Made by a program: the position numbers and the translations under genes. Under the pieces are notes generated by a model. The model saw nothing but the letters and a program-made list of their open reading frames with translations, was not told where the DNA came from and did not search any database. This document shows positions 2,343-47,943 of a DNA stretch of 49,863 nucleotides, piece after piece (positions within the stretch are counted from its first letter, which is position 1; the number at the start of each line of letters is the position of its first letter). Source of the stretch: Prevotella sp. (GTDB lineage Bacteria; Bacteroidota; Bacteroidia; Bacteroidales; Bacteroidaceae); assembly GCA_017475265.1 (NCBI GenBank), contig JAFVFY010000078.1, positions 1-49,863 of the forward strand. The letters run 5' to 3'.

Positions 2343-5321
2343 ATGAATGACCGCTTTTTCTTGTTTGTGAGGAAAAAATGGATTTGTTTTTCCATTGCTG
2401 TGATATGTGGAGGTTTCACGGCATGTACAGACGATTACGACCTTGACGACCCAGGCAATTACCCCTCCTGGCTGGGAGGCAGCATCTATGGAGCCCTCAA
2501 GGATCCTGCCAGCCTTCAGGAAGGCGACAAAGCCATGCTGTCGGGTACTTTCACCAACTACCTTCGCCTTATTGACGACCTCGGCTATGCAGAGACGTTG
2601 TCGAAGACTGGTTCCAAGACCGTCTTTGCCGCCAACGACGAGGCTTTCGACCGCTTCTATGCCAATAACCAATGGGGTGTACATCGTTACGAAGACCTGA
2701 CGCTGGCCATGAAGAAACAGTTGCTCAACTCTTCGATGCTCGACAATGCCCTGCTGGTGGAGATGCTGTCCAACATCTCCGGCACCTCCGACGACCCCAT
2801 CATCCACGGCATGGCTTTGAAGCATGTCACCAGCGCCAGCGTCATAGACACCATCACCCACATGAAGCACCAGCTCGACATGCCCGTGAACAATGACTAC
2901 TGGACGAAGTACTACGACAAGGGTCTCTACGTAGTCATGGATGCCACCCGTCCCATGATGGTGCATTTCACCGAGGAGCAGATGACCACCAACGGCATCA
3001 CGACCCGTGGCAATGACAGCGACTTTGAAGTGGTCACAGGAAACGTTTTCGACCCCGATGAGCACTCTGCCTATATCTTCAGAAACAAGATTATCAGCGC
3101 CGACATCACCTGTAAGAACGGCTATATCCACCAGATGGAGGACGTGCTCGTCCCGCCGGGCAACATGGCTCAGGTCATTCGTAACAACAGCGAGTCGTCC
3201 CTTTTCAGCCGGATGCTCGACCGCTTTAGTGCTCCTTATTTCGATTCGGAGGCTTCCGTAGTGACCAGGAACTACAACGACTACGTCCAGTCATTAGGCG
3301 ACAACACCACTTTGCAGCACATCGACAGTATCTATCAGATGCGCTACATCAGCTCCTATTCACAAGGAAGAAGCCTGATGACAGACCCCAACTACAATGA
3401 GGTCGGCTACGGACTCGTCTACGACCCAGGATGGAACAATTACGATAATGGCTCGGGCGACAACAGCATCCGTGACATTGCCGCCATGTTCGTTCCCACA
3501 GACGAAGCCCTCGCCCATTTCTTCATCGAAGGTGAGGGAAAGTTCCTCATCGAAGAATTCGGAAAGAAAGAAGGCGACGTGCTGCTCAACGACCGTGCCC
3601 ACCTGGCGGAGAACATCGACTCCATTCCTTTGCAGAACGTCCAGCAGCTGGTGAACAACCTGATGAAGCTTTCCTTCGTCGGCACCGTACCCTCAAAGTT
3701 CAGCCACGTCATGGATGAGGCCAACGACCCGATGGGCCTGAGCCTCGATGTGCTGAACCGCACGGACGACAATAAATATAATGTGAAGATAGCCAACAAT
3801 GGAGTCATCTATATGCTCGACAAGATGTTTGCTCCTCCTTCGCTCGTGGCAGTCTCCGCTCCTGTCACCATGAAGAGCAACATGCGCATCATGAATGTGG
3901 CCGTAAACGACGGTAAGGGAACAAAGCCGCTGGGGCTGAACCTGAACTACTACGCCTATCTGCTGGCCATGAGTGCCACCTACGCCTTCTTCATCCCCAC
4001 CGACGATGCCTTCGAGCGTTATTACATAGACCCCTCGTCACTCTCCGACGATGAGCCTCGCGCCCTCAAGTTCTACTATCAGAGCAAGTCGCCCTTCGTC
4101 AATTGCTCTGCCTGGAAGTGCCTCAAGAACTCCGATGGACAATGGGAGATCGGCGACTCCATAGGAAAGGTAAATGCATCCGCCTTCCGCTCACAGTTCA
4201 CCGACCTGCTCAACTATCACACCATCGTGCTCGGCGACGGAGAGAAACTGGGAGACAACGGGAACAAGTATTACAAGACGAAGCACGGAGGAGAAATTCT
4301 CTTTGAAAACGGAGTCGTAAAGAGCGGAGCACAAATCGAAGGCTCAGTTCCCCAATCCACCATCACACAAACCTACCATCAGAAAAACGGAGTGGCCTAC
4401 TCCATCGACCATATCATACAGGCACCTCAGCGCTCCGTCCTCGCTGTTCTGGAGCAAGACGCAGAAACAACGTCACGCTTCTCAGAGTTCCTTAACCTCT
4501 GCAACGACTTCGACATGGACGAGCTTATGGCCTTTGCCAGCGACCGTCTGAGCGAAAAGAACGAGGTGACGAAGAAACAGCGCATGGCTGCCTATCACCC
4601 CTTTGCCGCCAAGAACGGACTTACTGACAACGTCAACTATTTCAACTCATTCAATTATACTGTCTACGCGCCCGACAATGAGGCCATGAAGAAAGCATAC
4701 GCCCTGGGGTTGCCAAAATGGAGCGACATCAAGGCCATCTACGAACCACTCAAGGAACGATTCGAAATAGAGAAAGCCGATAACAACATAAGCCCGGAAG
4801 TACAGGAAGCACGTGACAAGGCACTCGTGATGGTCGAAGAAATCAACAACTTCATACGCTATCACTTCCAGGACAACTCCGTCTATGCCGACAACGTCGT
4901 CGACGCAGGTGTCTATTCTACAGCATGCTCCGATACCCTCGGCATCCGCCAAAGGCTCACCGTAGAGGGAGGAAAGGGACAGCTCCGCGTTACCGACTGC
5001 GCAGGACAGACCATCAACATCGATGCCAACAGCACGACACGATACGTCAATGTCATGACGCGCGACTATGAGCTCAACAAGCGACAGCACGTCATCAACA
5101 ATTCGTCCTTTGCTGTCGTCCATCAAATCAGCACTCCCCTCAATTACCACTCCTCTGAGGCCGCCAACTCTCGACCCTCGACTCTCAACTCTCAACCTGT
5201 TTCGCCTGTTCGCTATGACAGGATGTGGACAGGCAACAATGCCCGTGCCCGCATGGCTAACTACCGCAAGCAGTACGAAGCCACCTACTATAAGCGCTAC
5301 GACTATGATATTCAACATTGA
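2343..5321 (+). CDS. Four-FAS1 surface lipoprotein (module A, gene 1)
   Basis: 992 aa. A signal peptide ends in a lipobox (GFTAC, Cys28), followed by TDDYDLDD, an acidic patch typical of Bacteroidetes surface lipoproteins. Four FAS1 (fasciclin) H1-like motifs are visible: KTVFAANDEAF (about 92), AAMFVPTDEAL (about 380), YAFFIPTDDAF (about 546) and YTVYAPDNEAM (about 772). FAS1 domains are adhesion modules, so a role in binding ligand for the neighbouring SusC/SusD is likely but inferred. The paralogue in module B (913 aa) shares the layout, for example WLGxSIY near the N terminus and the CKNGYI…M segment. The C-terminal tail (about 938-992) is longer than in the paralogue and contains repeat-encoded PSTLNSQPVSP. 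It is the first gene of a seven-gene run; the next start is 38 nt away. Confidence 0.85.
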   Translation: MNDRFFLFVRKKWICFSIAVICGGFTACTDDYDLDDPGNYPSWLGGSIYGALKDPASLQEGDKAMLSGTFTNYLRLIDDLGYAETLSKTGSKTVFAANDEAFDRFYANNQWGVHRYEDLTLAMKKQLLNSSMLDNALLVEMLSNISGTSDDPIIHGMALKHVTSASVIDTITHMKHQLDMPVNNDYWTKYYDKGLYVVMDATRPMMVHFTEEQMTTNGITTRGNDSDFEVVTGNVFDPDEHSAYIFRNKIISADITCKNGYIHQMEDVLVPPGNMAQVIRNNSESSLFSRMLDRFSAPYFDSEASVVTRNYNDYVQSLGDNTTLQHIDSIYQMRYISSYSQGRSLMTDPNYNEVGYGLVYDPGWNNYDNGSGDNSIRDIAAMFVPTDEALAHFFIEGEGKFLIEEFGKKEGDVLLNDRAHLAENIDSIPLQNVQQLVNNLMKLSFVGTVPSKFSHVMDEANDPMGLSLDVLNRTDDNKYNVKIANNGVIYMLDKMFAPPSLVAVSAPVTMKSNMRIMNVAVNDGKGTKPLGLNLNYYAYLLAMSATYAFFIPTDDAFERYYIDPSSLSDDEPRALKFYYQSKSPFVNCSAWKCLKNSDGQWEIGDSIGKVNASAFRSQFTDLLNYHTIVLGDGEKLGDNGNKYYKTKHGGEILFENGVVKSGAQIEGSVPQSTITQTYHQKNGVAYSIDHIIQAPQRSVLAVLEQDAETTSRFSEFLNLCNDFDMDELMAFASDRLSEKNEVTKKQRMAAYHPFAAKNGLTDNVNYFNSFNYTVYAPDNEAMKKAYALGLPKWSDIKAIYEPLKERFEIEKADNNISPEVQEARDKALVMVEEINNFIRYHFQDNSVYADNVVDAGVYSTACSDTLGIRQRLTVEGGKGQLRVTDCAGQTINIDANSTTRYVNVMTRDYELNKRQHVINNSSFAVVHQISTPLNYHSSEAANSRPSTLNSQPVSPVRYDRMWTGNNARARMANYRKQYEATYYKRYDYDIQH
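5166..5201. repeat. CTCTCAAC-type simple repeat inside a CDS
   Basis: Successive CTCTCGAC/CCTCGACT/CTCTCAAC words encode RPSTLNSQP in the C-terminal tail of the first FAS1 lipoprotein. The same word type recurs in frame at 16809-16838 and 18463-18500. Confidence 0.65.
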
Positions 5322-5359
5322 ACAATAATTACGAATTTTGTAATACGAATATAGGAATT

Positions 5360-8300
5360 ATGAATTTTGAATTACGAATTGTGAAGGTACTGTTGCTCAT
5401 CATTGCCACCCAATGGTTAATGGTCAATGGTCAATGGTCAACGGTCTTCGCCCAGCAAATACGTATCTCCGGCACCGTCACCGATGCCATGGGGCCAGTC
5501 ATGATGTGTAACGTCGTCGAGATTGACAACAACAACCGTATCGTATCCAATGCGCAAACCGACATCAACGGAAACTTCTCCATGACCGTCAAGAACGCGA
5601 AGAACAAGCTACGCATATCCTACGTCGGTTACAAGACCGTCACACTACCCATCGGCACCCGGAACAAATTCAATGTCAAGCTTCAGGATGCCACACAGAT
5701 AAAAGAGGTGGAAGTCGTGGCCAAGCGAAAGTTCAACCAAGGAGGACTCGCCATACCAGAGAAAGAGGTCTCGGTCGCAGCACAGACCTTCAACATGGCC
5801 GAAGTAGAGGGACTCGCCTTCACCTCGGCCGACGAAGCCCTGCAGGGACAAATCGCAGGACTTGACATCGTCTCCAACTCAGGTAACCTCGGCTCTGGAA
5901 CGACCATGCGTCTGCGTGGTGTCACCTCCATCAACGGAGACTCCAACCCGCTCATCGTCGTCGATGACAATATCTTCGACAACCCCGACGCCAACTTCGA
6001 CTTCCAGAACGCCAACGAAGAGACCTACGCCTCGCTGCTCTCCGTCAACCCCACCGACATCGAGGACATACAAGTCCTCAAAGACGCCGCAGCAACAGCC
6101 ATCTGGGGCTCACGAGGAGCAAACGGTGTCATCGCCATACGTACAAAACGAGGAGCACGTGGAGCTGTACGTGTAGATTATTCTCTCCGTCTCCAAGCCA
6201 GCTGGCAGCCAAAGGGCTACAACCTCCTCAACGGTGATGACTACACCATGATGCTCAAGGAAATGTACTACAACCCATCCCAGAGCGCTAACGCCACCAC
6301 CAACATCAACGAAATCAACTACAACTACCAGTGGGCAGAGTTCCAGAACTGGAACAACAACACCGACTGGGTCGACGAGGTTCAGCAGACAGCATGGAGC
6401 CAGTACCACTCCCTCTCCATTACCGGCGGCGGCGAAAAGGCCAACTTCCGTATATCTGCAGGATATGACCACCAGAACGGAACCATTATCAAGCAGACAC
6501 TCGACCGATTCACCACGAAGCTCACCCTCGACTACTTCGTCAGCGACCGCATCAAGTTCAGCACCACATTCCCACTCACCTACACCGCCAACAACCGCAA
6601 CTACGACGACAACATCCTGGGACGTGCACAGAAAATCGCCCCTAACATGAGCGTCTACCGACAGAACGGCGACGGAACCAACACCGGTGAGTTCTATGCC
6701 ATGCTGCCGCTAGGAGCAAGCGACGCCGCTGGCTCATCAATGCCTAACACCTCCTCTACCCAGCTGAAAGACATACGAGACCTCGGGAACCCCGTCGCCA
6801 TCGCCAACCTCGCCTGGAGAAAGGAAAAGACCTACCGCATATCACCAGAATTCAAAATCGACTACGACCTTCTCGGCAAGGATGACGACCATACCCGTCT
6901 GAAATATACCGGACTTGTCTATCTCGACATCTTCTCTCAGAGTGAGCCGAAGTACTGGCCTGGCTCACTGGAGACAAAGGGATGGACCGATGGTAAATAC
7001 AACCATAGTCAGGTCTACGACCACAACTCACTTGCAGTCACCACGCGCCACACACTCACCTTCACGCCCCATTTCAACAACGAGGACTTCTATGTCACCA
7101 TGCTCGGACGATGGGAACTCACGACAGCCAACAACAACAGCCAGAACGTGGAGAACAAGAATACGCCCATGGATATCACTTCCCCCACTGTCGATGCCAG
7201 CATCACATCCATGAGCAGTAGTAATGGACAGTCACGCTCCATGTCAATGACCTATACCGGTCACTTCTCCTACAAAGAACGTTACATCCTCGACGCATCT
7301 CTACGAGCCGATGGAACTACCAAGTTCGGCGATGATAAGAAATGGGGATATTTCCCCGGACTCTCCATACGATGGAACATCATCCACGACAAAAACGCCA
7401 TCCCCTTCGGAGAGAACCTACAAGCTGCCCTCTCCATGCTCGCCTTCCGAGCATCATGGGGAGTCGTAGGACGTCCACCGGGCTCCGAATACCTACAGTA
7501 TTCTATGTACAACACATCAGGCGTATATGGTGCACTCGGAAACACCCACAGCGTCACCTACCTCGATGGACTTCAGCTCAACAAGCTCAAATGGGAACGA
7601 ACATCACAATACAACATCGGAGCTAACCTCGGCATACTCAACGACCGCATCACAGCTTCCTTCGACTACTATTTCAAGCGCACCAACGACCTCCTCATGG
7701 GAGGAGTGAAAGTACCATCCACCACAGGATTCTCATCACTCTCATGGGCCAACGTCGGAGAAATGACCAATAAAGGATGGGAGCTCAACATCTATGCCAA
7801 CCGCTTCATCCGAATAAAGGATTTCTCCGTCTCAGCAAACTTCAACATCTCGCAGAACTTCAACGAAATAGTAGACATGGACGAAAGCGTCCTCCAGAGC
7901 ATCAACTCCGAATGGGACCCCTCCAGCCGCAGACAGTACCTTAACCGAATACAAAAAGGTAACCCACTCGGCTCCATCTACGGACTTCGTTACCATGGTG
8001 TCTATCAGTACACCTACGAATACCTCACCAACTTGAAAGCCAGCAATGACTGGGATGGGGAACAGCTACGCAACTATATCAATAACGAATTCCTGGCACA
8101 GGGCAAGACGGCACCAATAGCACTCGATGCTGACGGCAAAGTCATGATGGACGCCTTCGGAAATCCCATACGCCAGGTATATAACTTCAACGAAGGCTCC
8201 TCAACCTATAAGTTCCAGGGTGGCGATGCCATTTATGAGGACGTCAACCACGACGGACAGATTAACTCCCTCGACATCGTCTATCTCGGAAACTCCAACC

Positions 8301-8788
8301 CACACCTCAATGGAGGATTTGGCATCAACCTGCAATTTAAGAACTGGTCACTAAAGACAAGCTTCAACTACCGTCAGGGCATTAAGGTGGTGAATTCTGC
8401 AAAGATGAACCTCGAGCAGATGTTCAACGCCTATAACCAGAGTTCTGCCGTGAACTGGCGCTGGCGTAAGAATGGCGATGTCACGATCATACCTCGTGCT
8501 ATGTTCAATACGGGTTATAACTTCCTCGGCAGCGACCGATATGTGGAAGATGCCTCGTTTGTACGTATGAGTTATGTCCAACTTTCTTATAATTTTAATC
8601 CCAAGGTGCTGAAGCCTCTGGGGTTGCATAGGCTGAACTTCAGTCTCTCAGGACAGAACCTATTCTTCTGGAGCAAGTACAGCGGAACCGACCCTGAACA
8701 TTCGCCCGGTTCATGGGGCATTGCCTACGACTCTTCGCAAACTCCACGCTCGAAGTCTGTGACGATGAATATTCAAGTGGGATTCTAG
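5360..8788 (+). CDS. SusC/RagA-family TonB-dependent receptor (module A SusC1)
   Basis: 1142 aa from ATG 5360. The longer reading from TTG 5318 is less likely because the signal peptide begins at MNFELRIVKV and ends near VFAQQ. Domains in order: carboxypeptidase-D-like regulatory β-sandwich starting ISGTVTDAMG (about 36-115); TonB plug (about 150-290) with DEALQGQIAGLDIVSNSG and MRLRGVTS; and a 22-strand-type β-barrel to the C terminus, ending in Phe. A DVNHDGQINSLDI calcium-like loop lies near 955. It forms the outer-membrane pore that imports a SusD-bound ligand using TonB energy. No STN domain is present, so sigma/anti-sigma signalling through this receptor is unlikely. Leucine CTG is nearly absent and Gly GGA is frequent around 7560-7990, whereas the last 450 bp use CTG and GGC. 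Confidence 0.93.
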   Translation: MNFELRIVKVLLLIIATQWLMVNGQWSTVFAQQIRISGTVTDAMGPVMMCNVVEIDNNNRIVSNAQTDINGNFSMTVKNAKNKLRISYVGYKTVTLPIGTRNKFNVKLQDATQIKEVEVVAKRKFNQGGLAIPEKEVSVAAQTFNMAEVEGLAFTSADEALQGQIAGLDIVSNSGNLGSGTTMRLRGVTSINGDSNPLIVVDDNIFDNPDANFDFQNANEETYASLLSVNPTDIEDIQVLKDAAATAIWGSRGANGVIAIRTKRGARGAVRVDYSLRLQASWQPKGYNLLNGDDYTMMLKEMYYNPSQSANATTNINEINYNYQWAEFQNWNNNTDWVDEVQQTAWSQYHSLSITGGGEKANFRISAGYDHQNGTIIKQTLDRFTTKLTLDYFVSDRIKFSTTFPLTYTANNRNYDDNILGRAQKIAPNMSVYRQNGDGTNTGEFYAMLPLGASDAAGSSMPNTSSTQLKDIRDLGNPVAIANLAWRKEKTYRISPEFKIDYDLLGKDDDHTRLKYTGLVYLDIFSQSEPKYWPGSLETKGWTDGKYNHSQVYDHNSLAVTTRHTLTFTPHFNNEDFYVTMLGRWELTTANNNSQNVENKNTPMDITSPTVDASITSMSSSNGQSRSMSMTYTGHFSYKERYILDASLRADGTTKFGDDKKWGYFPGLSIRWNIIHDKNAIPFGENLQAALSMLAFRASWGVVGRPPGSEYLQYSMYNTSGVYGALGNTHSVTYLDGLQLNKLKWERTSQYNIGANLGILNDRITASFDYYFKRTNDLLMGGVKVPSTTGFSSLSWANVGEMTNKGWELNIYANRFIRIKDFSVSANFNISQNFNEIVDMDESVLQSINSEWDPSSRRQYLNRIQKGNPLGSIYGLRYHGVYQYTYEYLTNLKASNDWDGEQLRNYINNEFLAQGKTAPIALDADGKVMMDAFGNPIRQVYNFNEGSSTYKFQGGDAIYEDVNHDGQINSLDIVYLGNSNPHLNGGFGINLQFKNWSLKTSFNYRQGIKVVNSAKMNLEQMFNAYNQSSAVNWRWRKNGDVTIIPRAMFNTGYNFLGSDRYVEDASFVRMSYVQLSYNFNPKVLKPLGLHRLNFSLSGQNLFFWSKYSGTDPEHSPGSWGIAYDSSQTPRSKSVTMNIQVGF

Positions 8789-8805: not shown

Positions 8806-8831
8806 GATAAATTAAAAATGAAAAATTAAAA

Positions 8832-10682
8832 ATGAGAAATATGAGTTCATTCTTCATTCTTCATAATTCATTCATTAGCAAAGCGCGCAAGCCGCTAAGT
8901 TTATTGTTTATTGTTTATAGTCTATTGTCTTTCGTAGCGTGCAACGACTTCCTGACCATCTATCCTACCGACCGTATTGTGGGTGAGGATTTCTGGAAGA
9001 CGAAGGCGGATGTCGACCAAATGGTGGACGGCTGTTATCTGAGTATGCTGAATGACGAGGTGCAGTCACGTGCCATTATCTGGGGTGCCTACCGTTCCGA
9101 TGAACTGGTGAAGCGCGATGACTATACCGACTTAACCCTTGACAATATCAACGCAGTAAATCTGCTGCCCACGATGGGCTATTGCTCTTGGGCAAGTCTA
9201 TACAAGGTGATTAACAATTGTAACGTCGTATTGAACCATGCCCCTGATGTGATGGCCGTAGACCCGGAGTTCACCGAAGGCGACTACCAGGTGGTGAGGG
9301 CTCAGATGCTGGCACTCCGCAGTCTGTGCTACTTCTATCTCGTGCGTGCTTTCCGCGATGTCCCCTATATGTCTCATTCCGTAGAGAACGACAATGAGAT
9401 AGAGCCTGTTCCCCAGTTGCCACCTGCTGAAGTGCTGGAGCATTGTCTGGATGATTTGCAGGAAGCCCGTCGTTTCATTATGAAGTCGGGCGGTTATGGC
9501 CAGAACGACTGGCGCAACTGGGGCTATATCACTACAGATGCCGTCGATGCCATCATGGCCGACATTTATCTGTGGCGTGCTGCCATGACCCACAACAATG
9601 CTGACTACGAAAAGGTGATTGAACTCGTTGACCGAGTGGTTGAGGCGAAGGATGCCTACTACCAAAAGTACAACACAGAGGTGGTGGGCACAGGCAAGAA
9701 AGACCCCTATCATCTTTATGACGGTGAGTATGCACAGTTGGAAATCTTCCATTTCAATAATGGTAATAGCCGCGAGAGTATTCTGGAGTGGCAGTATAAT
9801 GGTATTAACAATGCCAACTCAGAATTGGAGAAATACTATTATAAGACTGACAACAATGCCCAGCATGGCCGCCTAATGGCATCAAAGATTTTCAATTCAA
9901 TCGAAACTAATGCCAACAAGGAAGGAGCTCAGAAGATGTTCTTCTCCAAGGACGACTATCGTTACTGGAACATCATCTATGATGCCAACAACGCCGAGGC
10001 AGAGCAGCTGTCCATACGAAAAATGGTTTATGCAGAGAGTTCTCAGTCGGTTGTTTCTGTGAAGTCCAATGCAGGCCTGTCGAAGAGTAGTTCGAGAGAC
10101 TTTGACAACTTCCGCCAGAACTGGATTGTCTATCGTATTACCGACCTGATGCTGATGAAGGCTGAGGCGCTGGTCGCAATGATGAGAGATACAGAGGACA
10201 TTGAAGGGGGAGAGCCCACTGAGGACGAAGTGGAGAGAGATGCAAAGTATCTGAAGGAAGCTTTCGATCTGGTGCAGGTTGTGAACCTTCGCTCTATGGA
10301 GAAGAATTCTAAGGACACGCTGAAAGTAACTAACTTCCGGACAAAGGAGGCCATGGAAGCGCTGGTGCTGGCGGAACGGGAGCGTGAGCTCTGTTTCGAG
10401 GGCAAGCGCTGGTGGGACCTGATGCGTTATTGCTACCGTGGCATGAAGGGGGTGAACATCAACCTGACGTTGAACAAACAAGCTGTGGCTCCCCAGTTGC
10501 GCAAACAGATGTTGGATATGATTATCCGCAAATACAAGGCGGGTGAGGGCGATGCCGTTTCTTACAAGATGGATTCTGAGCCATACTTGTATTGGCCAAT
10601 CTATGAGAGTGAACTAAAGGTGAACAACCTGCTGAACCAAAATCCCGTCTGGATTCAGGAGAAGTCTACGGAGAAGAATTAG
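8832..10682 (+). CDS. SusD/RagB-family surface lipoprotein (module A SusD1)
   Basis: 616 aa, the partner of the preceding SusC. The signal peptide ends in the lipobox FVAC, with Cys followed by NDFLTIYP; a second in-frame ATG at 8841 is possible. The N-terminal TPR-type helical half starts with FWKTKADVDQMVDGCY. The C-terminal SusD_RagB signatures are YRITDLMLMKAEALV and ERERELCFEGKRWWDLMRY. SusD caps the SusC barrel and captures ligand at the cell surface. The DNA for the hydrophobic core of the leader is TTTATTGTTTATTG-type simple sequence related to the leaders of the next two genes, although those encode FAS1 proteins. It is 43 nt downstream of SusC1. Confidence 0.92.
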   Translation: MRNMSSFFILHNSFISKARKPLSLLFIVYSLLSFVACNDFLTIYPTDRIVGEDFWKTKADVDQMVDGCYLSMLNDEVQSRAIIWGAYRSDELVKRDDYTDLTLDNINAVNLLPTMGYCSWASLYKVINNCNVVLNHAPDVMAVDPEFTEGDYQVVRAQMLALRSLCYFYLVRAFRDVPYMSHSVENDNEIEPVPQLPPAEVLEHCLDDLQEARRFIMKSGGYGQNDWRNWGYITTDAVDAIMADIYLWRAAMTHNNADYEKVIELVDRVVEAKDAYYQKYNTEVVGTGKKDPYHLYDGEYAQLEIFHFNNGNSRESILEWQYNGINNANSELEKYYYKTDNNAQHGRLMASKIFNSIETNANKEGAQKMFFSKDDYRYWNIIYDANNAEAEQLSIRKMVYAESSQSVVSVKSNAGLSKSSSRDFDNFRQNWIVYRITDLMLMKAEALVAMMRDTEDIEGGEPTEDEVERDAKYLKEAFDLVQVVNLRSMEKNSKDTLKVTNFRTKEAMEALVLAERERELCFEGKRWWDLMRYCYRGMKGVNINLTLNKQAVAPQLRKQMLDMIIRKYKAGEGDAVSYKMDSEPYLYWPIYESELKVNNLLNQNPVWIQEKSTEKN

Positions 10683-36611: not shown

Positions 36612-36725
36612 GACAATAAACAATAAACGTGAAACAATAAACATTGTGCAAAATGAATAAGACATCAATGATAAAAAGATTGACCAGTAAAATAACGGTT
36701 ATTGGTTATTGTTTATTGGTTATTG
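36612..36725. repeat. Leader cassette, copy 1 (5'UTR plus signal peptide)
   Basis: The 114 bp align without gaps to 40735-40848 with 11 mismatches (about 90% identity). The cassette covers the intergenic gap, the start codon and the signal-peptide coding region up to KITVIGYCLLVI, then similarity drops at the lipobox. The genes behind the two copies are a SusD and a FAS1 protein, which are not homologous. Confidence 0.85.
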
Positions 36726-38575: not shown

Positions 38576-40735
38576 ATGAAAAAATATCTCAGTGAAAAGA
38601 CAAGAGGAATATTCCGCTTTATGGTGTATATACTCCTCCCCCTCGCAGGGGGAGGCTGGGTGGGGGTCTCCTGCTCCGATGAACCCGAAGGTGAGTACTT
38701 CTACAGCTTCACCGGCGAGATGGCAAGCGACTACTTGAAGAACAGGCCTGAGCAATACAGCCAGTTCACTAAGATAGTGGAGAAGGCCAAGCTCATGGAC
38801 CTCCTTGCCACATACGGACAGTACACGTGCTTCGTTCCCACCAATGATGCCGTCGATGCCTATCTTAAGAATCGCAACATCAAGAGCATCGACGACTTGA
38901 GCAAGGCCGACTGCGACACCATCGCCCGTACACACATCATCTCTGGTGGTATCCTGAGCACTTTCGACCTCGTTCCCCACGGCACTACAGGCCTCTCTCT
39001 GCTCAACATGATAGGGCGCTACATCAGCACCTCCAACGGAGAGTTGAACGGGCAGCCTGTCGTCATGCTGGAGGGCTTGGCTCACATTGACCTCGAACAT
39101 CAGAACGATACCGTGGAGAACGGCATCATGCAGTCGATAGACCTGGTATTGGAAAAGTCTAACAGCTATGCTGCAGACATCCTGGGCAACAACCCGTCCA
39201 TGGGACTCTTCTACCAGGCCCTTCAGGCAACAGATGTCTACAATGACATCCTCCTCGTGGAAGACGAAGACTACGACGCCAAAAGCTACAAGAAGTACTA
39301 CTACACCTCTGACTTCTGGCGCGAGGTAGCCTGGGTACCCGATACCCGCAAGTATGGCTATACCATCTTCGTGGAACCCGACTCGCTCTATCGGGCAAAG
39401 TTCAAGGAGATGAATATCTCTACCGCCAACGGTGAACTACGGGCACTCTACGACCTGGCCTGCAAGCTCTACGACCCCACCTACCCAGATGATGTCAACG
39501 CCACTGGCCACTCATTCGAGCACCTCACCGACAGCATCAACCCCTTGCGCCGTTTCGTGCAGTACCACATTCTCAACCGCTCGGTACCTGGCGTGGACAA
39601 GCTCACCGCTCCGGTGATGAACGTGGGTAGCACCAACGAGGCCTTCGGTTTCAACACCAAGATTGTGAACCCCGTGGATTGGTATCAGACCCTGCTGCCA
39701 CATACGCTGATGAAGTTCGAGCAGCTCACCGTAGACATCGACGAGCTGGGCAACGATTGTCGCGGCATCGACCGTGACAAGGTAGGCGAACGGTTTATCA
39801 ACCGCCGCTATGCCGCACCAGAGTTCACCCATCGCGGAGCCTGGATAGACAGCCGCGTGGACACGCTCTATGAGCACGACGCCATCAACGGTCACTTCTT
39901 CTATGTCGATGACATAGTGGCCTTTACCAAGGAAGTGCGCGACGAAGTGCAGAACATGCGCATACGCATGGACTTCAGCTCCGTCTTCCCCGAGGTGATG
40001 ACCAACGACCTGCGCCAAAATGGCGACCCCACTAAAGACGATGCCTCCGGCTCGCCCGATGACAGTGCAGTGCCTGTCAATGGCCGTAATTTCTACTTCC
40101 CTGACGGCTATCTTGACGGTGTATCCTTCACCAACTGCTACTGCGTGTTGCGCCGCCCGCACACCAATTTCTGGTCGTGGCAGGGTGACGAGTGGAACCT
40201 CTTTGGCGACTACGACTTCACCTTCCGCATACCACCCGTTCCCTATAGTGGAGAGTGGCAGCTGCGACTGGGATTCTGCGCACTACCCACCCGTGGTGTC
40301 ATGCAGACATACTTCGACGGCATACCGCAGGGTATACCCCTCGACATGACCAAGTTCCTCGATTCAGAATTGTATATCGGCGACCGCTTCGTCAACGACG
40401 AGAAGCTGGGTGATTATAACAATAAGACCGATGAGGAAAAGGCTGAAGAACAGAAGCTTCTGAAGAACCTGAGTGCTTACCGCGACGGCCGTTCGCAGTA
40501 TCACTTCAATCCATCCAGTGGTGAGCAGTACTTCTTCCTTGGTAATCCACGCACCTACCGCCGTGTGCTCTGCCAGACCTACATCGACGCCCATAAGGAC
40601 CACTACCTGCGCTTCCGCGTGGCAAGTGACGGTAAGCAGGGTAACAACAACGAGTTCATGCTCGACTTCTTCGAGATGGTGCCCAAGAGCGTCTATGCCG
40701 TCGATGGCGAGGGAGCCATGGAGGACGACCTCTAA
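38576..40735 (+). CDS. FAS1 surface lipoprotein with C-terminal β-domain (module B, gene 4)
   Basis: 719 aa. The signal peptide is odd: after MKKYLSEKTRGIFRFMVY the hydrophobic part reads ILLPLAGGGWVGVSC, encoded by a G-rich dispersed repeat (38636-38672). The lipobox Cys is followed by SDEPEGEYF. FAS1 H1-like motifs are YTCFVPTNDAV (about 83) and YTIFVEPDSLY (about 262). The C-terminal β-domain has FRIPPVPYSGEWQLRLGF (about 549-566). It is the counterpart of the 712-aa protein at 10731. A weakly hydrophobic, glycine-rich leader could lower export efficiency. Confidence 0.85.
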   Translation: MKKYLSEKTRGIFRFMVYILLPLAGGGWVGVSCSDEPEGEYFYSFTGEMASDYLKNRPEQYSQFTKIVEKAKLMDLLATYGQYTCFVPTNDAVDAYLKNRNIKSIDDLSKADCDTIARTHIISGGILSTFDLVPHGTTGLSLLNMIGRYISTSNGELNGQPVVMLEGLAHIDLEHQNDTVENGIMQSIDLVLEKSNSYAADILGNNPSMGLFYQALQATDVYNDILLVEDEDYDAKSYKKYYYTSDFWREVAWVPDTRKYGYTIFVEPDSLYRAKFKEMNISTANGELRALYDLACKLYDPTYPDDVNATGHSFEHLTDSINPLRRFVQYHILNRSVPGVDKLTAPVMNVGSTNEAFGFNTKIVNPVDWYQTLLPHTLMKFEQLTVDIDELGNDCRGIDRDKVGERFINRRYAAPEFTHRGAWIDSRVDTLYEHDAINGHFFYVDDIVAFTKEVRDEVQNMRIRMDFSSVFPEVMTNDLRQNGDPTKDDASGSPDDSAVPVNGRNFYFPDGYLDGVSFTNCYCVLRRPHTNFWSWQGDEWNLFGDYDFTFRIPPVPYSGEWQLRLGFCALPTRGVMQTYFDGIPQGIPLDMTKFLDSELYIGDRFVNDEKLGDYNNKTDEEKAEEQKLLKNLSAYRDGRSQYHFNPSSGEQYFFLGNPRTYRRVLCQTYIDAHKDHYLRFRVASDGKQGNNNEFMLDFFEMVPKSVYAVDGEGAMEDDL
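38636..38672. repeat. G-rich REP-like element encoding a signal-peptide core
   Basis: CTCCCCCT, CGC, AGGGGGAG (38636-38654) is a perfect 8-bp hairpin, followed by GCTGGGTGGGGGTC. In frame it encodes the LPLAGGGWVGV part of the lipoprotein leader. Related sequence lies at 38494-38537 and 20281-20315. Confidence 0.7.
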
Positions 40736-40848
40736 ACAATAAACAATAAACGTTTAACAATAAACATTGTGCAGAATGAAACAGAATTCAATTATAAAAA
40801 GACTGACCAGTAGAATAACGGTTATTGGTTATTGTTTATTGGTTATTG
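40735..40848. repeat. Leader cassette, copy 2 (5'UTR plus signal peptide)
   Basis: It is about 90% identical and collinear with 36612-36725. The identity is perfect over the last 35 bp (ATAACGGTTATTGGTTATTG and on), which encode the hydrophobic core, and it stops before the lipobox cysteine. Confidence 0.85.
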
Positions 40849-42713
40849 TCTTCGCTTCCTGTTCAGACACCTGGGACGACCATTACGACGGCTCGCTGTC
40901 AAACGCCAGCGGTGGCAACAGTGGCACCCTTTGGGAAGCTATCAAAAGCGATGCCAGCCTGAGTAATTTCGCCAGCGTCATCGAGGGGACGGGGTATAAC
41001 CGATCTCTGAGCAGCAGCCAGGTGTTCACAGTCTTCGCTCCTGTCAACGACGATTTCTCAGCTGCCGACGCAGCAGCGCTCATAGAGCAATATAAATTGG
41101 AGAAAAAGAGCGTCGAAGATGAATACAATACTGTCATCAAGGAGTTTGTGCAGAACCACATTGCACTCTACAACTACAGTGTGTCCTCGGCAAGCAACGA
41201 CAGCATCGTGCTCATGAATGGCAAGTATGCCGTCATCACTTATCAGGGCATTGACGCCAGCGCCTTCAAGGAGAAGAACAAACTCTATGGCAACGGTGTC
41301 CTCTTCACCGTCGAGACCCCCGTCCACTATTCTGCAAACATCTTTGAGCAGCTGCGCAAGGATGCCGATCTGGACAGCGTGCGTTCCTTCGTCCATAATC
41401 CCCTGTTCTACCGTCGTGATTTCGACCCCAGCCAGAGTGTGGCAGGTGGCCTCAACGACTTAGGAGAGACTGTCTACCTCGACTCCGTATGGGTGCAGAC
41501 ATTTAGCATGAAAGATTATTTGGGATATATCCATTCTGAGGATAGTACCTACTGGATGGTGCTGCCCACCAATGACGAGTGGACGCGTATGATTGAGGAG
41601 TACACTCCCTACTTCAACTACAGCCCGAAGGCCGCCGACCTTATTAAAGAGGGTGATGGCACCTTCGACTCCCTATTGTACACCAACCCACGTCTGGCCA
41701 TACTCTCGGGAGTGACCTTCAGCCGCACGACGAATCCCCGCATACTCTCAGGTGAGGTAACCAGTACCACCAACAATGACTCGCTCATGTCATGCAATGC
41801 AGTACTGAACTACAACAACCGTCAATGGAAATGGGGAGCACCCTTCAACTACGGACAGTACTTCAACCCGATGAGCGAGGGTGGTGTGCTGAGTGGAGGG
41901 GCATGGACCAACTGCAGCAACGGACGCATCCTCAAGACCTCTAAGTGGAACATCGACCCGCTACAGAACTTCCTTCGCTGGAACATCAACGAAGTGGAGC
42001 AAGCATATCTCGACATATCGAAATACCAGACCAATGCTACGACAAAAGACTCTGCCTACACAGCCGACACCTACTATCGCAACGTCACCAACGACAAGTT
42101 CTCTGGCCGCGTGTGGAACGGCACGTTTGTGGAGTTCAGCCCGGCAGTGAGTACTGTCAGGCCTATTGTCACCATCGGCCTGACGGGTATGCTCTCCAAC
42201 GTGGGCTACGACATCTACCTCGTCACCGCACCGGCACTGGCTAACGACAGCAATGCCACCACACAGCAGAGCCTGCCCACGAAGTTCAACTGCACCATCA
42301 AATATCCTGATGCTAACGACGTCATGCAGTCCAAGTCACTGGGTACCAACATCACCACGTCGGGCACGAAGATGGACTACATCCTTCTGGCTGAGGACTT
42401 CCAGTTCCCCATCACCTATTACGGTCTCCAAGAGGAGAAGCCCTCTGTGCGAATCGAACTGGAATGCCGCGTGAGTAACAACGAAGTGAAGAACGACCTC
42501 TTCACCCGTACCATGCGCCTTGATTGTGTACTCGTAGTGCCCCACGGCACGTTGCGGCTGGTCGACGACCTTGCAACCGTCAGTCCTGCTCTTGCCGGTC
42601 AGCCGGGTGTCCTCATGTTCCCACATGGATGGAGCGACAAGAAACCTAGCGACGTCACTGATGAAAACATGTTTGAGAACTTCAGGCTGAAAGCCCTGTA
42701 TATGCTCCGATAG
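40776..42713 (+). CDS. FAS1 surface lipoprotein (module B, gene 5)
   Basis: 645 aa from ATG 40776 (the TTG at 40767 is three codons earlier). The lipobox is VFASC, followed by SDTWDDHYDG. FAS1 H1-like motifs are FTVFAPVNDDF (about 84) and YWMVLPTNDEW (about 259). The C-terminal half is β-rich (FVEFSPAVSTVRPIVTIGLTG), similar in layout to the 591-aa protein at 12922. The lipobox-proximal SDTWDDHYD matches SDWDEHFD in that counterpart. The family role is adhesion or ligand binding; the ligand is unknown. Confidence 0.83.
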   Translation: MKQNSIIKRLTSRITVIGYCLLVIVFASCSDTWDDHYDGSLSNASGGNSGTLWEAIKSDASLSNFASVIEGTGYNRSLSSSQVFTVFAPVNDDFSAADAAALIEQYKLEKKSVEDEYNTVIKEFVQNHIALYNYSVSSASNDSIVLMNGKYAVITYQGIDASAFKEKNKLYGNGVLFTVETPVHYSANIFEQLRKDADLDSVRSFVHNPLFYRRDFDPSQSVAGGLNDLGETVYLDSVWVQTFSMKDYLGYIHSEDSTYWMVLPTNDEWTRMIEEYTPYFNYSPKAADLIKEGDGTFDSLLYTNPRLAILSGVTFSRTTNPRILSGEVTSTTNNDSLMSCNAVLNYNNRQWKWGAPFNYGQYFNPMSEGGVLSGGAWTNCSNGRILKTSKWNIDPLQNFLRWNINEVEQAYLDISKYQTNATTKDSAYTADTYYRNVTNDKFSGRVWNGTFVEFSPAVSTVRPIVTIGLTGMLSNVGYDIYLVTAPALANDSNATTQQSLPTKFNCTIKYPDANDVMQSKSLGTNITTSGTKMDYILLAEDFQFPITYYGLQEEKPSVRIELECRVSNNEVKNDLFTRTMRLDCVLVVPHGTLRLVDDLATVSPALAGQPGVLMFPHGWSDKKPSDVTDENMFENFRLKALYMLR

Positions 42714-42740
42714 TATTCACCTCTAAACAATAAGGAAACA

Positions 42741-45700
42741 ATGTCTATGAAACGATATATCTTATTTGGACTTACAATGCTGCTCTCCTCACTTCCTTTG
42801 GGCATGATGGCTCAGGATGATGAGTCTGATGACGAGGAAGAGGGCACGGAGACGTCAGTACGTACGTTTACCCCAAAGCAGAAGCAGTATGAGACGCGCA
42901 CCGTCCGTGGCTCCGTCATCGACGCTGCCACGGGTCAGCCTGTTGCCGGTGCTATCGTGCGCGCTGCAGAGATTGACGGCTACAGCGTACTCACCGAGGA
43001 TGACGGTACCTACACCTTGAAGGTACCAGTGTTTGCCACCGCTCTCCACATCTCCACGCCCGACCATAATGCCGTGCGCATAGGTCTACTGAAGGGTGAG
43101 GAACAGAAGACGGCAATGCTACATGCTGCCATGTTTGTCACCGACTATAGTCAGCAGACCAACGTGCGCAACGATTACATCACCGATGACTTCCGCTTCA
43201 CTTCGGCCATCAACATCAAGGACGAGGTGCAGAAGCAACTCGGCGCACAGGTGTACACACAGACCCACAACGGAACGCCCGGCATCGGAAGCACCATGTT
43301 CATACAGGGTTTGAACTCGCTCAACGTCAATGCTCAGCCACTGATTGTCATCGACGGAGTGATTATCGACCAACAGTATGGACGCACACTGCTCCACGAC
43401 GGTTTCTACAACGACCTGCTGACAAACATCAACCCCTCCGACATAGAGAAGGTCACGGTGCTGCGCAACGGTACTGCCCTCTACGGTGCCAAGGGTGCCA
43501 ACGGTGTCATCCTCATCCAGACACGGCGCAACAAGTCGATGGCCACGCGCATCACGGCCAACGTCTCTGTAGGAGTGGTCACAGAGCCAAAATATGTGTC
43601 TATGATGGATGCCAACCAGTACCGAGGCTATGCCTCCGAGTTGCTCAAGAGCACAGAGACGAGAGAGAAGGCGTTCAACTTCCTCGACGAGCGTCAAATC
43701 AAGGACAACGGCGAGCGCAACTATTTCTACGACCTCTACCATCAGAACACCGACTGGAAGAAGTATGTCTACCACACCGCCATGACCCAGAACTACGGCA
43801 TCAACGTCGAGGGTGGTGACGATGTCGCCAACTACAACCTCTCCGTGGGCTACAGCAATGCTCAGAGCACACTGAAGATGAACGACATGGACCGTCTGAA
43901 CATACGCTTCAATACCGACATCCAACTGCTCCAGCGGCTTGGCGTGCGTTTCGACGCTTCGTTCTCAAACATTACGCGCAACCTGCGCAACGACGGTGCA
44001 CCCTCTACCTACGACGAGGGCACGCCCTCCAGCCCCTCCTTCCTGGCCTACGTGAAGAGTCCCTTCCTCAGCCCCTATAGCTACGGACGCGGTCGCTTCT
44101 CCGACTCACACTACGCAACAGACCCTGAGGACTACCTCACCACAGCCCTCCGCGAATACAGCAACTATAACTGGCAACTGGGCAACCCCGCAGCACTCCT
44201 TGAGTATTCTGACGCTGAGAACAAGAACCACTTCGAGAATTCGCAGCTCAACCTCACCGTCACACCCAAGTGGCAGTTCAATGCCAACCTCTCGCTCTCA
44301 GAGCATTTCAGCTACAACCTGGTGAACACCAGCGAGATGTACTACATTCCCATCAACGGAACGCCCTCCTACTATGTCGCCTCTCTCGATACTTACTGCA
44401 ATAATGAGGTGCGCTCATTAGCCTCAAAGCAGAACAGCGTGCAGAGCGACACCCGTTTAGACTGGCACAATCGCTATGGCGCTCATTACATACATGCCTT
44501 TGGAGGCGTGCGCATCAACTGGGAGAGCTTCACCACCAGTTCGCAGGTGGGTTACAACACCCCTTCCGACAAGACCCCCTTCATGAGCAGCAGCCTGGCT
44601 CACGTGAACGTCACTGGCGTTGATGAGAGCTGGAACGCCCTCTCCTGTTACGTACAGGGTGAGTACAACTACATGAGCCGCTACTACCTCCAGGCCAACC
44701 TCACTATGGATGGCTCGTCACGCTTCGGGCGCGATGCCGGCTCAATCCATCTCTTCAATGCTGCCTGGGCCATCTTCCCGGGCGTACAGGCGTCGTGGGT
44801 GATAAGCAACGAGCCTTGGCTTGCTAAAGTCAAGGGAATCGACTACCTGAAGCTCTCTGCCGGATTCGACGTCAGCGGTAACGATGACATCGACTACTAC
44901 TCCGCGCGCAGCTATTTCACAGCAGGAAAGTTCCTTAACAACGTCAGCGCGCTCTCCTTCGGAGGCATCGGCAACACAGAGATACAGTGGGAGACCACCC
45001 GGCGCTTCAACATTGGTCTCGAAGGCCACTTCCTGAACAACCGCCTGGCACTCAGCGCAAACTACTTCCACGCCATCACCGACAACCTGCTCACGCTGCA
45101 GCAGCTGGGATTCCTCTCCGGCCTTGACTACAACTGGAGCAATGGCGGTAAACTGCAGAACGACGGCTTCGATGTCTCGGCCAACGTGAAGATCATCACC
45201 ACCAAGGACTGGCAATGGCAGGTGGGAGCCAGCGTGGGACACTATAAGAACAAAATCAAGGAGCTGCCTGACGGTGCACAGTATGTCGACAACACCGTCT
45301 ACGGAGCCACCATCCGCACACAGGTGGGCCAGGCTGCCAACCTCTTCTATGGCTATAAGACCAATGGAGTCTATGCCACCGCTCAGGAGGCTACCGATGC
45401 AGGTCTCTACGTGCTTGGCGACAACGGCGTGGAGCACATGGCCTTCGAGGGTGGCGACATGAAGTTCATAGACCTTGATGGCAACAAGGAGATCAACGAG
45501 GCCGACCGCACCATCATAGGTGACCCCAACCCCGACATCTATGGAAACATCTTCACAACTCTCCAATGGAAGCGACTGAAGCTCGACGCACGCTTTAACT
45601 ACTCTCTGGGCAACGATGTCTATAACTATATGCGTCAGCAGCTCGAGGGCGGCTCGCGCTTCATGAACCAGACCACGGCCCTGAACCGTCGCTGGCAGGC

Positions 45701-46019
45701 CGAAGGACAGCAGACCGACATACCCCGCATCACCTTCCAGGATCCCATGGGCAACAGCCGCTTCAGCGACCGCTGGATAGAAGACGGCTCCTATCTCCGT
45801 CTGAAGAGCGTTACACTCAGCTACGACATTCCGCTTAAATCGGAGTTCATTCAGGGATTGCAGATATGGCTGCAGGGCAATAACCTGCTCACCTTCTCCA
45901 AGTACCTCGGCAGCGACCCCGAGTCTTCCATGTCCAACAACGTCATCGGTATGGGTATCGACCTCGGACGCCTCGCACAGAGCCGCAGCTTCGTGGCTGG
46001 AGTGAAGATTAACCTCTAA
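42741..46019 (+). CDS. SusC/RagA-family TonB-dependent receptor (module B SusC2)
   Basis: 1092 aa; ATG 42747 (MKRYILFGL) is an equally plausible start. The signal peptide ends GMMAQ, followed by an acidic stretch DDESDDEEEGTE. The regulatory β-sandwich starts VRGSVIDAATGQPVAG. The plug has MFIQGLNSLNVNAQPLIVIDGV. The β-barrel has IDLDGNKEINEADRTIIGDPNPDIYGN and a C-terminal INL. It is the paralogue of SusC2 in module A, which has a similar acidic linker (DDDATSEE) after the signal peptide. Such an acidic N-terminal linker is not a standard TonB box and is shared only by the SusC2 class here. Confidence 0.93.
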   Translation: MSMKRYILFGLTMLLSSLPLGMMAQDDESDDEEEGTETSVRTFTPKQKQYETRTVRGSVIDAATGQPVAGAIVRAAEIDGYSVLTEDDGTYTLKVPVFATALHISTPDHNAVRIGLLKGEEQKTAMLHAAMFVTDYSQQTNVRNDYITDDFRFTSAINIKDEVQKQLGAQVYTQTHNGTPGIGSTMFIQGLNSLNVNAQPLIVIDGVIIDQQYGRTLLHDGFYNDLLTNINPSDIEKVTVLRNGTALYGAKGANGVILIQTRRNKSMATRITANVSVGVVTEPKYVSMMDANQYRGYASELLKSTETREKAFNFLDERQIKDNGERNYFYDLYHQNTDWKKYVYHTAMTQNYGINVEGGDDVANYNLSVGYSNAQSTLKMNDMDRLNIRFNTDIQLLQRLGVRFDASFSNITRNLRNDGAPSTYDEGTPSSPSFLAYVKSPFLSPYSYGRGRFSDSHYATDPEDYLTTALREYSNYNWQLGNPAALLEYSDAENKNHFENSQLNLTVTPKWQFNANLSLSEHFSYNLVNTSEMYYIPINGTPSYYVASLDTYCNNEVRSLASKQNSVQSDTRLDWHNRYGAHYIHAFGGVRINWESFTTSSQVGYNTPSDKTPFMSSSLAHVNVTGVDESWNALSCYVQGEYNYMSRYYLQANLTMDGSSRFGRDAGSIHLFNAAWAIFPGVQASWVISNEPWLAKVKGIDYLKLSAGFDVSGNDDIDYYSARSYFTAGKFLNNVSALSFGGIGNTEIQWETTRRFNIGLEGHFLNNRLALSANYFHAITDNLLTLQQLGFLSGLDYNWSNGGKLQNDGFDVSANVKIITTKDWQWQVGASVGHYKNKIKELPDGAQYVDNTVYGATIRTQVGQAANLFYGYKTNGVYATAQEATDAGLYVLGDNGVEHMAFEGGDMKFIDLDGNKEINEADRTIIGDPNPDIYGNIFTTLQWKRLKLDARFNYSLGNDVYNYMRQQLEGGSRFMNQTTALNRRWQAEGQQTDIPRITFQDPMGNSRFSDRWIEDGSYLRLKSVTLSYDIPLKSEFIQGLQIWLQGNNLLTFSKYLGSDPESSMSNNVIGMGIDLGRLAQSRSFVAGVKINL

Positions 46020-46065
46020 GCGCTTCGCTAATGAAAAAAGTAATAAATAAAAAAGAAATAAAGCT

Positions 46066-47943
46066 ATGACACATAAAATATGCAAAACAGCTAAAGAACT
46101 GACAGGTTTATTATTTGTTCTTTGTTCTTTATTATTTAGCGCAGCGCTCAACGTAGCGTGTGGCGATTTCTTCGAGCAAGAGTCCGACCACCTCATCTTT
46201 GCCGACAAGGACCACCTCACCAACTGGTCCGACACCGTGTTCAGCGTTACGGGCATCCTCGGCCAGCTTCAGAACATTGCCGACCGCACCATCCTCCTGG
46301 GTGAGGTGCGTGGCGACCTTGTCACGCTCACCGACAATGCCTCTGCCGACCTGCGCGAACTGGCCACCTTCAGCGTCTCCGACGACAACAAGTACAACCA
46401 CCCCAGCGACTACTATTCCGTCATCAACAACTGTAACTACTACATTGCGAATGTAGACACGGCGTTGAGGAGCAACCGTGGCGACTACATCTTTATGAAG
46501 GAGTACATCGCCGTGAAGAGCATACGTGCCTGGACATACCTCCAGCTCGTGCTTAACTATGGCTCCGTACCTTTTGTCACTGAGCCTGTGCTCACGAAGG
46601 ATGCCTCCGAAGCCAACTATCCACGCTATGAGCTGGCTCAGGTTTGCCAGTACTTCATCGATGACCTGACAGGGCTGCCTGAGACCTACGAGACGCAGTA
46701 TCCCAGTCCAGGGAACTATTATTTCTTCCCCATTGACATTGTCCGAGGCGATCTCTACCTCTGGCTGGGCAGCACCATGGGCACTGAGGGAGGAAAGAGC
46801 TACTTCGAGAAGGCTGCACAGGCATACCTGCGCTTCATCAAGCGTCGAAACGAGAACTCCTACTATGCCACCAGCTCGGTACGAGTCATGTGGCCCACTT
46901 CACAGGGTACTACCAACTGGTATATGGCATATGACCTAGACTACATCAGCAGCTTCCTGCTATCACTAGGACACGACGCAGAACTCATTACTGCCGTGCT
47001 GAGCAACAGCACACCTGCACAGGGCTACTACTGCCGTCTTCCGGAGCTATTCAACTCCACTGAGGAGAACGACTACAAAGCCAGCATCACACCCTCACAG
47101 CGCATCATAGAGCTGTCGGAGGCTCAGACCAACTGTGTGGTGTCCAGCAACGCCGGCAATGTCATAGTGACCTATTCACCCTCAGGTCTGAGCAATTACA
47201 TGTCGGGCGACCTGCGCCTTAGTTCCGTTTGGTCGAAGAGAGAACGCACCATCAACAACAACCGTGTGGAGGAGCAGGAGATAAGCAAATACGATTCGCG
47301 CTTCGTGCGTCTCTACCGCCGTACGCTCGTCTACTTGCGCCTGGCCGAGGCCCTTAATCTGGCCGGACAGCCCCGACTGGCATACAAAATCCTCGAACGC
47401 GGACTCACCGACAAGGTCATCTCCGATGAAGTCTACCCATATCTCAACACCGCCGACTCCACCTGGGTGAAGGCTAATGTCAGCTTCCCCGCAGCATTCT
47501 ATGAGACCATTGATGTGAGTGAGTTCAGCAGGGGGCTCTATTCCATATCGGGCAACACGCTCAACACCCTGGGACTGCACAGCCGCGGCTCTGGTTATTC
47601 ACCGCTTAATGAGTACTACAAGCTCGACTATGCAGACTCCATCTGCGTCTCCATGCAGCCTGACAGCACACGCTTCTTCAATGACGCTGCCTACCAGAGC
47701 ATCAAGAAGCGCCAGATGGAACAGGTGGATAGTCTCATCCTCAACGAGGAGGCACTGGAGTTCTCCTTCGAGGGTTACCGCTACCACGACCTCATGCGCT
47801 TCGCCATGCGCAGCGATAATCCCGGGAAGTTCCTCACCGATGCTGTGAACCGTCGCGGCGGCAAGGACACCAGCGCTGGCATCGACCTCACCAACCCCCA
47901 CAACTGGTATCTCCGCTGGGGCAACGGCAAGATTGGCTACTGA
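46066..47943 (+). CDS. SusD/RagB-family surface lipoprotein (module B SusD2)
   Basis: 625 aa. The lipobox is NVAC (SAALNVAC), followed by GDFFEQESD. SusD features are RAWTYLQLVLNYGSVPFVTEP, LVYLRLAEALNLAGQPRLAY and NEEALEFSFEGYRYHDLMRF. It is the partner of SusC2. The leader DNA (TTTATTATTTGTTCTTTG…AGCGCAGCGCTCAACGTAGC) matches leaders in module A, including that of the FAS1 gene at 10731, where AGCGCAGCGCTCAACGTAGC is identical. It is the last gene of module B. Confidence 0.92.
   Translation: MTHKICKTAKELTGLLFVLCSLLFSAALNVACGDFFEQESDHLIFADKDHLTNWSDTVFSVTGILGQLQNIADRTILLGEVRGDLVTLTDNASADLRELATFSVSDDNKYNHPSDYYSVINNCNYYIANVDTALRSNRGDYIFMKEYIAVKSIRAWTYLQLVLNYGSVPFVTEPVLTKDASEANYPRYELAQVCQYFIDDLTGLPETYETQYPSPGNYYFFPIDIVRGDLYLWLGSTMGTEGGKSYFEKAAQAYLRFIKRRNENSYYATSSVRVMWPTSQGTTNWYMAYDLDYISSFLLSLGHDAELITAVLSNSTPAQGYYCRLPELFNSTEENDYKASITPSQRIIELSEAQTNCVVSSNAGNVIVTYSPSGLSNYMSGDLRLSSVWSKRERTINNNRVEEQEISKYDSRFVRLYRRTLVYLRLAEALNLAGQPRLAYKILERGLTDKVISDEVYPYLNTADSTWVKANVSFPAAFYETIDVSEFSRGLYSISGNTLNTLGLHSRGSGYSPLNEYYKLDYADSICVSMQPDSTRFFNDAAYQSIKKRQMEQVDSLILNEEALEFSFEGYRYHDLMRFAMRSDNPGKFLTDAVNRRGGKDTSAGIDLTNPHNWYLRWGNGKIGY

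Follow-up and report, generated by a model that had tools for sequence, protein, structure and literature searches.

In Bacteroides thetaiotaomicron, the pectic polymer rhamnogalacturonan I (RG-I) is, according to passages of PMC8002723, bound by the surface glycan-binding protein (SGBP) BT4167, cut by the lyase BT4170 and imported by BT4164/BT4165 and BT4168/BT4169. The BT4145-BT4183 locus has been linked to RG-I in an excerpt of PMC3243724, and the same passages of PMC8002723 place two SusC/SusD pairs in the arabinan and homogalacturonan loci of this species as well. A FAS1 domain protein and a SusD-like protein are labelled in a figure legend of PMC4891872 in a cellulose/hemicellulose-like polysaccharide-utilisation locus (PUL) of Gramella portivictoriae and other Flavobacteriaceae. 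We analyzed a 49,863-nucleotide stretch of Prevotella sp. DNA, contig JAFVFY010000078.1 (contig C114 of a 4.75 Mb draft genome in 135 contigs, 99.1% complete), which as a whole is called the window here. It carries two sets of seven genes, modules A and B, each in the order FAS1-SusC-SusD-FAS1-FAS1-SusC-SusD as judged by Pfam. This seven-gene unit is real and strongly conserved, and on the evidence of sequence both sets probably build a cell-surface apparatus that captures fragments of plant pectin and related fibre and brings them into the cells of gut and rumen bacteria. We did not find the unit itself described in the literature searched, which consisted of open-licence PMC papers; as far as that search goes, what is new is that the unit is constant, has three FAS1 proteins and a divergent second SusC, and is multiplied within genomes.

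Module A spans 2343-20033 on the forward strand. It opens with a FAS1 protein of 992 aa (A1, 2343..5321; FAS1 stretches at about residues 69-166 and 214-271, further ones weak), followed by SusC1 (A2, 5360..8788; TIGR04056 at 663.5 bits, cut-off 368.25) and SusD1 (A3, 8832..10682). Two more FAS1 proteins come next, one of 712 aa with its FAS1 domain at residues 69-217 and no family match in its C-terminal part (A4, 10731..12869) and one of 591 aa (A5, 12922..14697), and the set closes with the divergent SusC2 (A6, 14742..18068; TIGR04056 at 561.2 bits, same cut-off) and SusD2 (A7, 18168..20033). Module B, at 30477-47943 on the same strand, repeats this with a first FAS1 protein of 913 aa from its ATG, or 926 aa from an upstream TTG at 30438 (B1, 30477..33218), SusC1 (B2, 33222..36611), SusD1 (B3, 36653..38491), FAS1 proteins of 719 aa (B4, 38576..40735) and 645 aa (B5, 40776..42713; Fasciclin at 23.9 bits, cut-off 22), SusC2 (B6, 42741..46019) and SusD2 (B7, 46066..47943). 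Pfam Fasciclin exceeded its cut-off in all six window FAS1 proteins (A1, A4, A5, B1, B4, B5), SusC plug and CarboxypepD-type domains were matched in A2, A6, B2 and B6, and SusD domains in A3, A7, B3 and B7, so that each module holds two adjacent SusC/SusD pairs. The initial annotation, made from the letters of the window, had listed these 14 genes on one strand with their protein lengths; all the reading frames are open and the lengths agree, those of B1, B3 and B5 when an internal ATG is used.

The host genome contains more copies than these two. A Fasciclin search, after which the stretches around the matches were fetched, gave six seven-gene modules: A, B and one each on contigs C73, C53, C34 and C118. 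The two modules first described are thus both real and share their order, but the count for the genome is six. Their SusC1 genes stand apart, scoring 1590-1941 bits against 412 for the next protein when all 45 SusC candidates of the genome were scored. The C118 module is the most distant, with a SusC1 34% identical to that of A. Each gene lies closer to its counterpart than to its neighbours, as had been proposed; the SusC1 of C73, for example, reaches 1220 bits with A2 and 140 with A6. Pairing was the same in all classes (1-6 by distances, and class 7 also), A having its partner on C73 and B on C34, while the module nearest to that of C53 was either C34 or B, varying by class.

We scanned named genome contigs using the six SusC1 proteins as queries and found at least 550 relatives, of which the best 80 loci were kept. 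Most of these are from Prevotellaceae and Bacteroidaceae of ruminants and guts, and they include Xylanibacter muris (L029) and Prevotella communis (L080). Classes 1-6 stood in strict order in 60 of the 80; the remaining 20, taken as a group, had contig-end cuts, an extra copy or a gene missed by the open reading frame (ORF) caller or the profiles. With the first, narrow profiles, strict order was seen in 14 of 31 SusC1-centred stretches from other genomes of the same family. Among 121 genomes of that family, in each of which up to six candidates were scored, SusC1 occurred in 74 and SusC2 in 76 (150 and 158 proteins in total), and 45 genomes had neither. The numbers of the two classes were equal in 67 of the 76 genomes having either; the nine unequal genomes are mostly fragmented assemblies, and G008, in three contigs, is also unequal.

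In an order-wide sample, SusC2 was present in 37 of 295 genomes, and 21 stretches taken from other families of the order comprised 12 with all seven genes in order, 7 partial or variant and 2 without a module. A class-level sample gave SusC2 matches at a looser threshold in 30 of 295 genomes, partly from the same order. Three of five stretches from outside the order (G445, G518 and G475) held all seven genes, and the other two only single SusC/SusD pairs. The seven-gene order is therefore kept in other genomes both within and outside the order. Five genomes matching the SusC2 profile (G224, G160, G535, G468 and G005) were rejected as module carriers on finding only single SusC/SusD pairs; G005, whose stretch was fetched in the class-level sample, belongs to the window's own genus. 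G227, a genome of another family, carries a close tandem of two modules on contig C7 (L210-L212) whose gene order is odd at the ends.

Distances within classes 1-6 correlated at 0.87-0.94 across the 80 modules, the value for SusC1 with SusC2 being 0.94. Together with order and pairing, this supports the proposal that the whole set, encoding two SusC/SusD importers and three FAS1 proteins, was inherited or acquired as a block. Neither outcome that the initial annotation had named as refuting, unexpected pairing of A and B genes or loss of the order in other genomes, was observed. A point against strict inheritance as a unit is that the nearest neighbour agreed with that of SusC1 in just 49-61% of the modules, so some exchange or noise is possible.

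The two SusC classes are about 25% identical to each other and differ in short motifs, in a comparison that took in just two other SusC proteins of this genome. A VLKD-type plug motif was present in 79 of 80 SusC1 proteins and 2 of 80 SusC2 proteins, whose consensus is VLKN, and the last residue was F in 77/80 SusC1 and L in 79/80 SusC2. A loose EVVV-type TonB-box motif was found in 58 of 80 SusC1 and 10 of 80 SusC2; SusC2 may have a divergent box. A loose motif for lipobox-like N-termini was matched in classes 1 (63/82), 3 (72/82), 4 (69/82), 5 (76/82) and 7 (18/20). Fasciclin was matched in 36 of 36 gene 4 members and 35 of 36 gene 5 members (E 0.1), with no other family recurring, and gene 1 carried two to four FAS1-like stretches in 77 of 80 loci, some of them perhaps parts of one domain. 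Profiles of genes 4 and 5 matched FAS1 domains of the TGFBI and periostin type (best E 2.1e-35 and 7.1e-35). Matches of the FAS1 proteins to solved structures lay only in the FAS1 stretches, those elsewhere having chance-level E-values; one gene 4 member gave a marginal match (E 0.039) to a domain of PL4 resembling a carbohydrate-binding module, and this was not relied on.

The neighbourhoods of the other modules bear most directly on function. We searched 56 distinct flanking proteins, picked by hand, against Pfam (GH51 and GH78 are labels given here to its arabinofuranosidase and rhamnosidase families) and found glycoside hydrolase (GH) or polysaccharide lyase (PL) families in 24 of them. 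PL11 was present in five loci of this set; other matches were GH51-type, GH43, GH31, GH30, GH2, GH3 and GH5, and a GH78-type rhamnosidase lies beside the G215 module. Outside the order, the G445 module is accompanied by a PL4-type rhamnogalacturonate lyase, GH2, GH115, GH28 and a GH88-family protein, while that of G518 adjoins rhaM (L-rhamnose mutarotase), RhaT and an FGGY kinase. Hybrid two-component system (HTCS) genes adjoin the L083 and G294 modules. Within the host genome, GH127 lies directly downstream of the C73 module, and the C53 module has GH8 downstream and a GDSL esterase and GH106 divergent from it. The GH106-type ORF of C53 (L004:1173-4235, 1021 aa) has a ParE-like start, perhaps a fusion or a wrong start, and the C118 module is preceded by two very large unannotated ORFs of 3254 and 3176 aa (L006 and L007).

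By similarity, 16 of the 80 loci have a PL11 lyase or its C-terminal part upstream, and in 11 of these a profile found it too. They are concentrated in the lineage of C73, where 11 of the 22 C73-type loci compare with 3 of the other 38 (Fisher p 0.0004), a count that includes four C73-type loci with only the C-terminal part of the lyase in the stretch (L028, L030, L032 and L042). In genomes of the same family, a PL11 gene on the strand of SusC1 and no more than 10 kb upstream of it was seen by eye for at least 8 modules, where 0.85 would be expected (118 modules, 47 genomes); this expectation is high rather than low because the PL11 counts include fragments. The P. communis module in G706 (about C1:771000-811000) comes after a PL11 gene found by profile. 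Among the matches listed for the host genome itself, PL11 is at two places, on C80 and C98, and there are four further places.

Taken together, the fixed order, the equal numbers of SusC1 and SusC2 in most carriers, and the enzymes for RG-I and arabinose side chains, HTCS or rhamnose genes beside some relatives' modules lead us to regard it as likely that each module is the outer-membrane core of a PUL for plant polysaccharides, mainly of pectin type (RG-I and its side chains). The initial annotation had held that neither copy encodes a carbohydrate-active enzyme or regulator and that the unit is not a classical PUL. The first statement is correct within the window, where Pfam gave no HTCS, SusR or sigma/anti-sigma regulator, for the seven genes and what directly flanks them, but does not extend to the unit in general, given the GH, PL and HTCS genes elsewhere; the second is not supported in view of the plant-cell-wall enzymes adjoining the C73 module (GH127), the C53 module (GH8, GDSL esterase, GH106) and relatives, and of the HTCS beside two modules.

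Several observations weigh against the PUL assignment. Pfam gave no glycosidase or lyase gene adjoining module A or B among the window proteins, and no PL11 RG-I lyase among the window genes. Most modules have no PL11 nearby, the hand-picked flank set gives an association and no rate, 8 of its 56 proteins had no Pfam match, and others matched CotH, domains of unknown function or sorting domains. A published FAS1-containing PUL is, in the part of PMC4891872 cited above, of cellulose/hemicellulose type.

If each module is such a PUL core, the three FAS1 proteins would be lipoproteins on the cell surface and would bind the polymer, a task that usually falls to SGBPs, and the two SusD proteins would be lids passing oligosaccharides to the two SusC barrels. 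Import would be TonB-driven, at least through SusC1. The six modules of the genome may serve different pectic or side-chain structures, with the enzymes for A and B presumably encoded elsewhere in the genome.

For the window copies, the substrate is less certain than for the unit, and arabinose-rich side chains are our leading guess, because a GH51-type arabinofuranosidase gene adjoins the module in a close relative of B, and GH43 is present in a relative of A. B1 directly follows a gene we call B0 (26596..30177, forward strand), which encodes a 1193-aa protein with a dockerin-type match. In G033 and G108, the second gene upstream of the B-type module encodes a protein 35-37% identical to B0 over about 1000 aa, and these two loci (G033:C1 and G108:C8) are the nearest relatives of module B outside the genome. 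In both, one more large gene stands between the B0-like protein and gene 1, and in G108 it encodes the GH51-type enzyme. Among relatives of A, the GH43 gene lies directly after gene 7 in G704. Speaking against this guess, the GH43 gene of G703 is five genes off with unrelated genes between, and five other A-type relatives (G697, G699, G701, G702 and G705) had no obvious enzyme directly after gene 7 when inspected by eye.

How the two importers work together admits more than one answer. They could be separate, ordinary importers that share an operon, serve different oligosaccharide classes and form no joint complex, which is compatible with a PUL core and to which we give slightly less than an even chance. 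The two SusC/SusD pairs of the B. thetaiotaomicron loci described in PMC8002723 and the low identity between SusC1 and SusC2 are in its favour, but the equal class numbers and the SusC1-SusC2 distance correlation reported above count against it, as signs of shared inheritance and not of a complex. A bolder proposal, which we think doubtful, is that all seven proteins form one obligate machine kept in more than one Bacteroidota order, in which a heteromeric SusC pair would combine SusC1D1 as the energised importer with SusC2D2, where an EVVV-type TonB box is mostly not recognisable, as an accessory or differently driven one, and the three FAS1 lipoproteins would be a shared scaffold capturing pectin.

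The initial annotation favoured, in place of a PUL, a surface machine equipped with adhesin-like FAS1 lipoproteins, which would be dedicated to adhesion or another surface role. FAS1 is commonly regarded as an adhesion domain, excerpts of a mussel-symbiont study of a highly transcribed FAS1 gene (PMC10199937) and of a marine single-cell study (PMC2668756) read it in this way, and modules A and B have no adjoining GH or PL gene. Against this, other modules within and outside the order adjoin PL11, PL4, GH28, GH106, GH78-type, GH51-type, GH43 and GH127 genes, and HTCS regulators and rhamnose genes lie beside others, so we consider such a machine very unlikely; an adhesive role as such is conceivable. 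A RagAB-like importer of peptides or glycoprotein fragments appears more improbable still. Profiles of both SusC classes match the solved structures of RagA and 5t3r, but 8aa4_A is the best at 504-522 bits against 296-301 for RagA (6sli), and the only peptidase-type matches among the 56 flanking proteins were a Peptidase_S9 overlapping an esterase and a sub-threshold DPPIV_N in a beta-propeller protein.

In the SusC1 tree, a quick search with SH-aLRT support only, each of the six modules of the genome sits on a different branch, joined in five cases by relatives from other species. Module A clusters with L021 and its relatives, and module B with G033:C1 and G108:C8, on separate starred branches; in SusC1, A is 47% identical to B and 92% identical to L021. 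By sequence comparison, A and B are separate old lineages and not the products of a recent duplication. That they arose by recent local duplication in this genome, as their spacing of about 10 kb on one contig might suggest, has almost nothing left to recommend it, being contradicted by these identities and rejected on the separate branches of the tree, each with relatives from other species.

Several module genes contain 7-bp tandem repeats in the start of the coding region, where the signal peptide is encoded; in the window these are at 5411-5446, 12955-12985, 36697-36726 and 40820-40848. A period-7 score was passed by 14 of 42 module genes of the host genome and by none of 58 other genes in the same stretches, and none passed at periods 5, 6, 8, 9 or 10. 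Among the loci of the 80 relatives, the score was passed by 30 of 526 module genes and 3 of 289 other genes. Exact copies of one 30-mer number eight, all on module-bearing contigs, and with up to 3 mismatches it is found at 96 places against 54 for a reversed control. Because a slip of 7 bases would shift the frame, phase variation of module genes is possible. In other module genes, the part coding for the signal peptide is a G/C-rich palindrome-like block, which was noticed by eye at about 38630-38675 of the window and in L006 and L008.

The interval between A and B carries, on the other strand, genes for a carboxylesterase-family protein, a rubrerythrin, an ABC ATPase, an HlyD-type protein and an amino-acid kinase, followed by B0. 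The carboxylesterase-family protein (20083..22482, reverse strand, convergent to module A), which includes a sub-threshold DUF4380 stretch, is the sole hydrolase seen next to module A, and its tie to the module is one of position. No tRNA genes were found in the window, and an Rfam scan of it gave nothing at the gathering threshold. A scan of window positions 1-20000 for sigma-70-type promoters found 28 where 21.2 were expected and was uninformative. Near the end of the window, a 181-aa ORF (48613-49158) has a sub-threshold CdiA_C match (21 bits, cut-off 26.6), and a perfect 22-bp tandem repeat occupies the contig end (49810-49863), where assembly probably stopped.

If each module is a pectin PUL core, a widespread import core of rumen and gut Bacteroidota would have a constant, easily missed form, two SusC/SusD pairs plus FAS1, and FAS1 domains in these bacteria would gain a testable role in glycan capture. 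PULs lacking adjoining enzymes, such as A and B, would become assignable by lineage, and whether two different SusC barrels act as one complex would be open to a direct test.

The closest described system is the BT4164-BT4170 region of B. thetaiotaomicron, with SusC-SusD, two genes, SusC-SusD and a lyase, a likeness drawn from the gene list in the published excerpts and not from sequence. In layout, A5 takes the position of the SGBP BT4167, and the G036 module together with its PL11 gene reproduces the RG-I core as given there, lyase included. The present case differs in that a single genome has six modules, several without a lyase nearby, and FAS1 is unmentioned in the cited portions of the texts on the B. 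thetaiotaomicron locus. The Gramella portivictoriae PUL resembles ours in having a FAS1 protein, but according to the cited part of its description it has GH5, GH9 and GH26 enzymes. TGFBI and periostin share the FAS1 domain by profile; they are animal proteins, and genes 4 and 5 have no family match beyond FAS1. Solved SusC/SusD complexes (8aa4, 5t3r and RagA) are not known to contain more than one SusC class per complex. Both SusC classes of the modules match these complexes by profile, but here the two classes are nearly always found together, and with them the FAS1 proteins.

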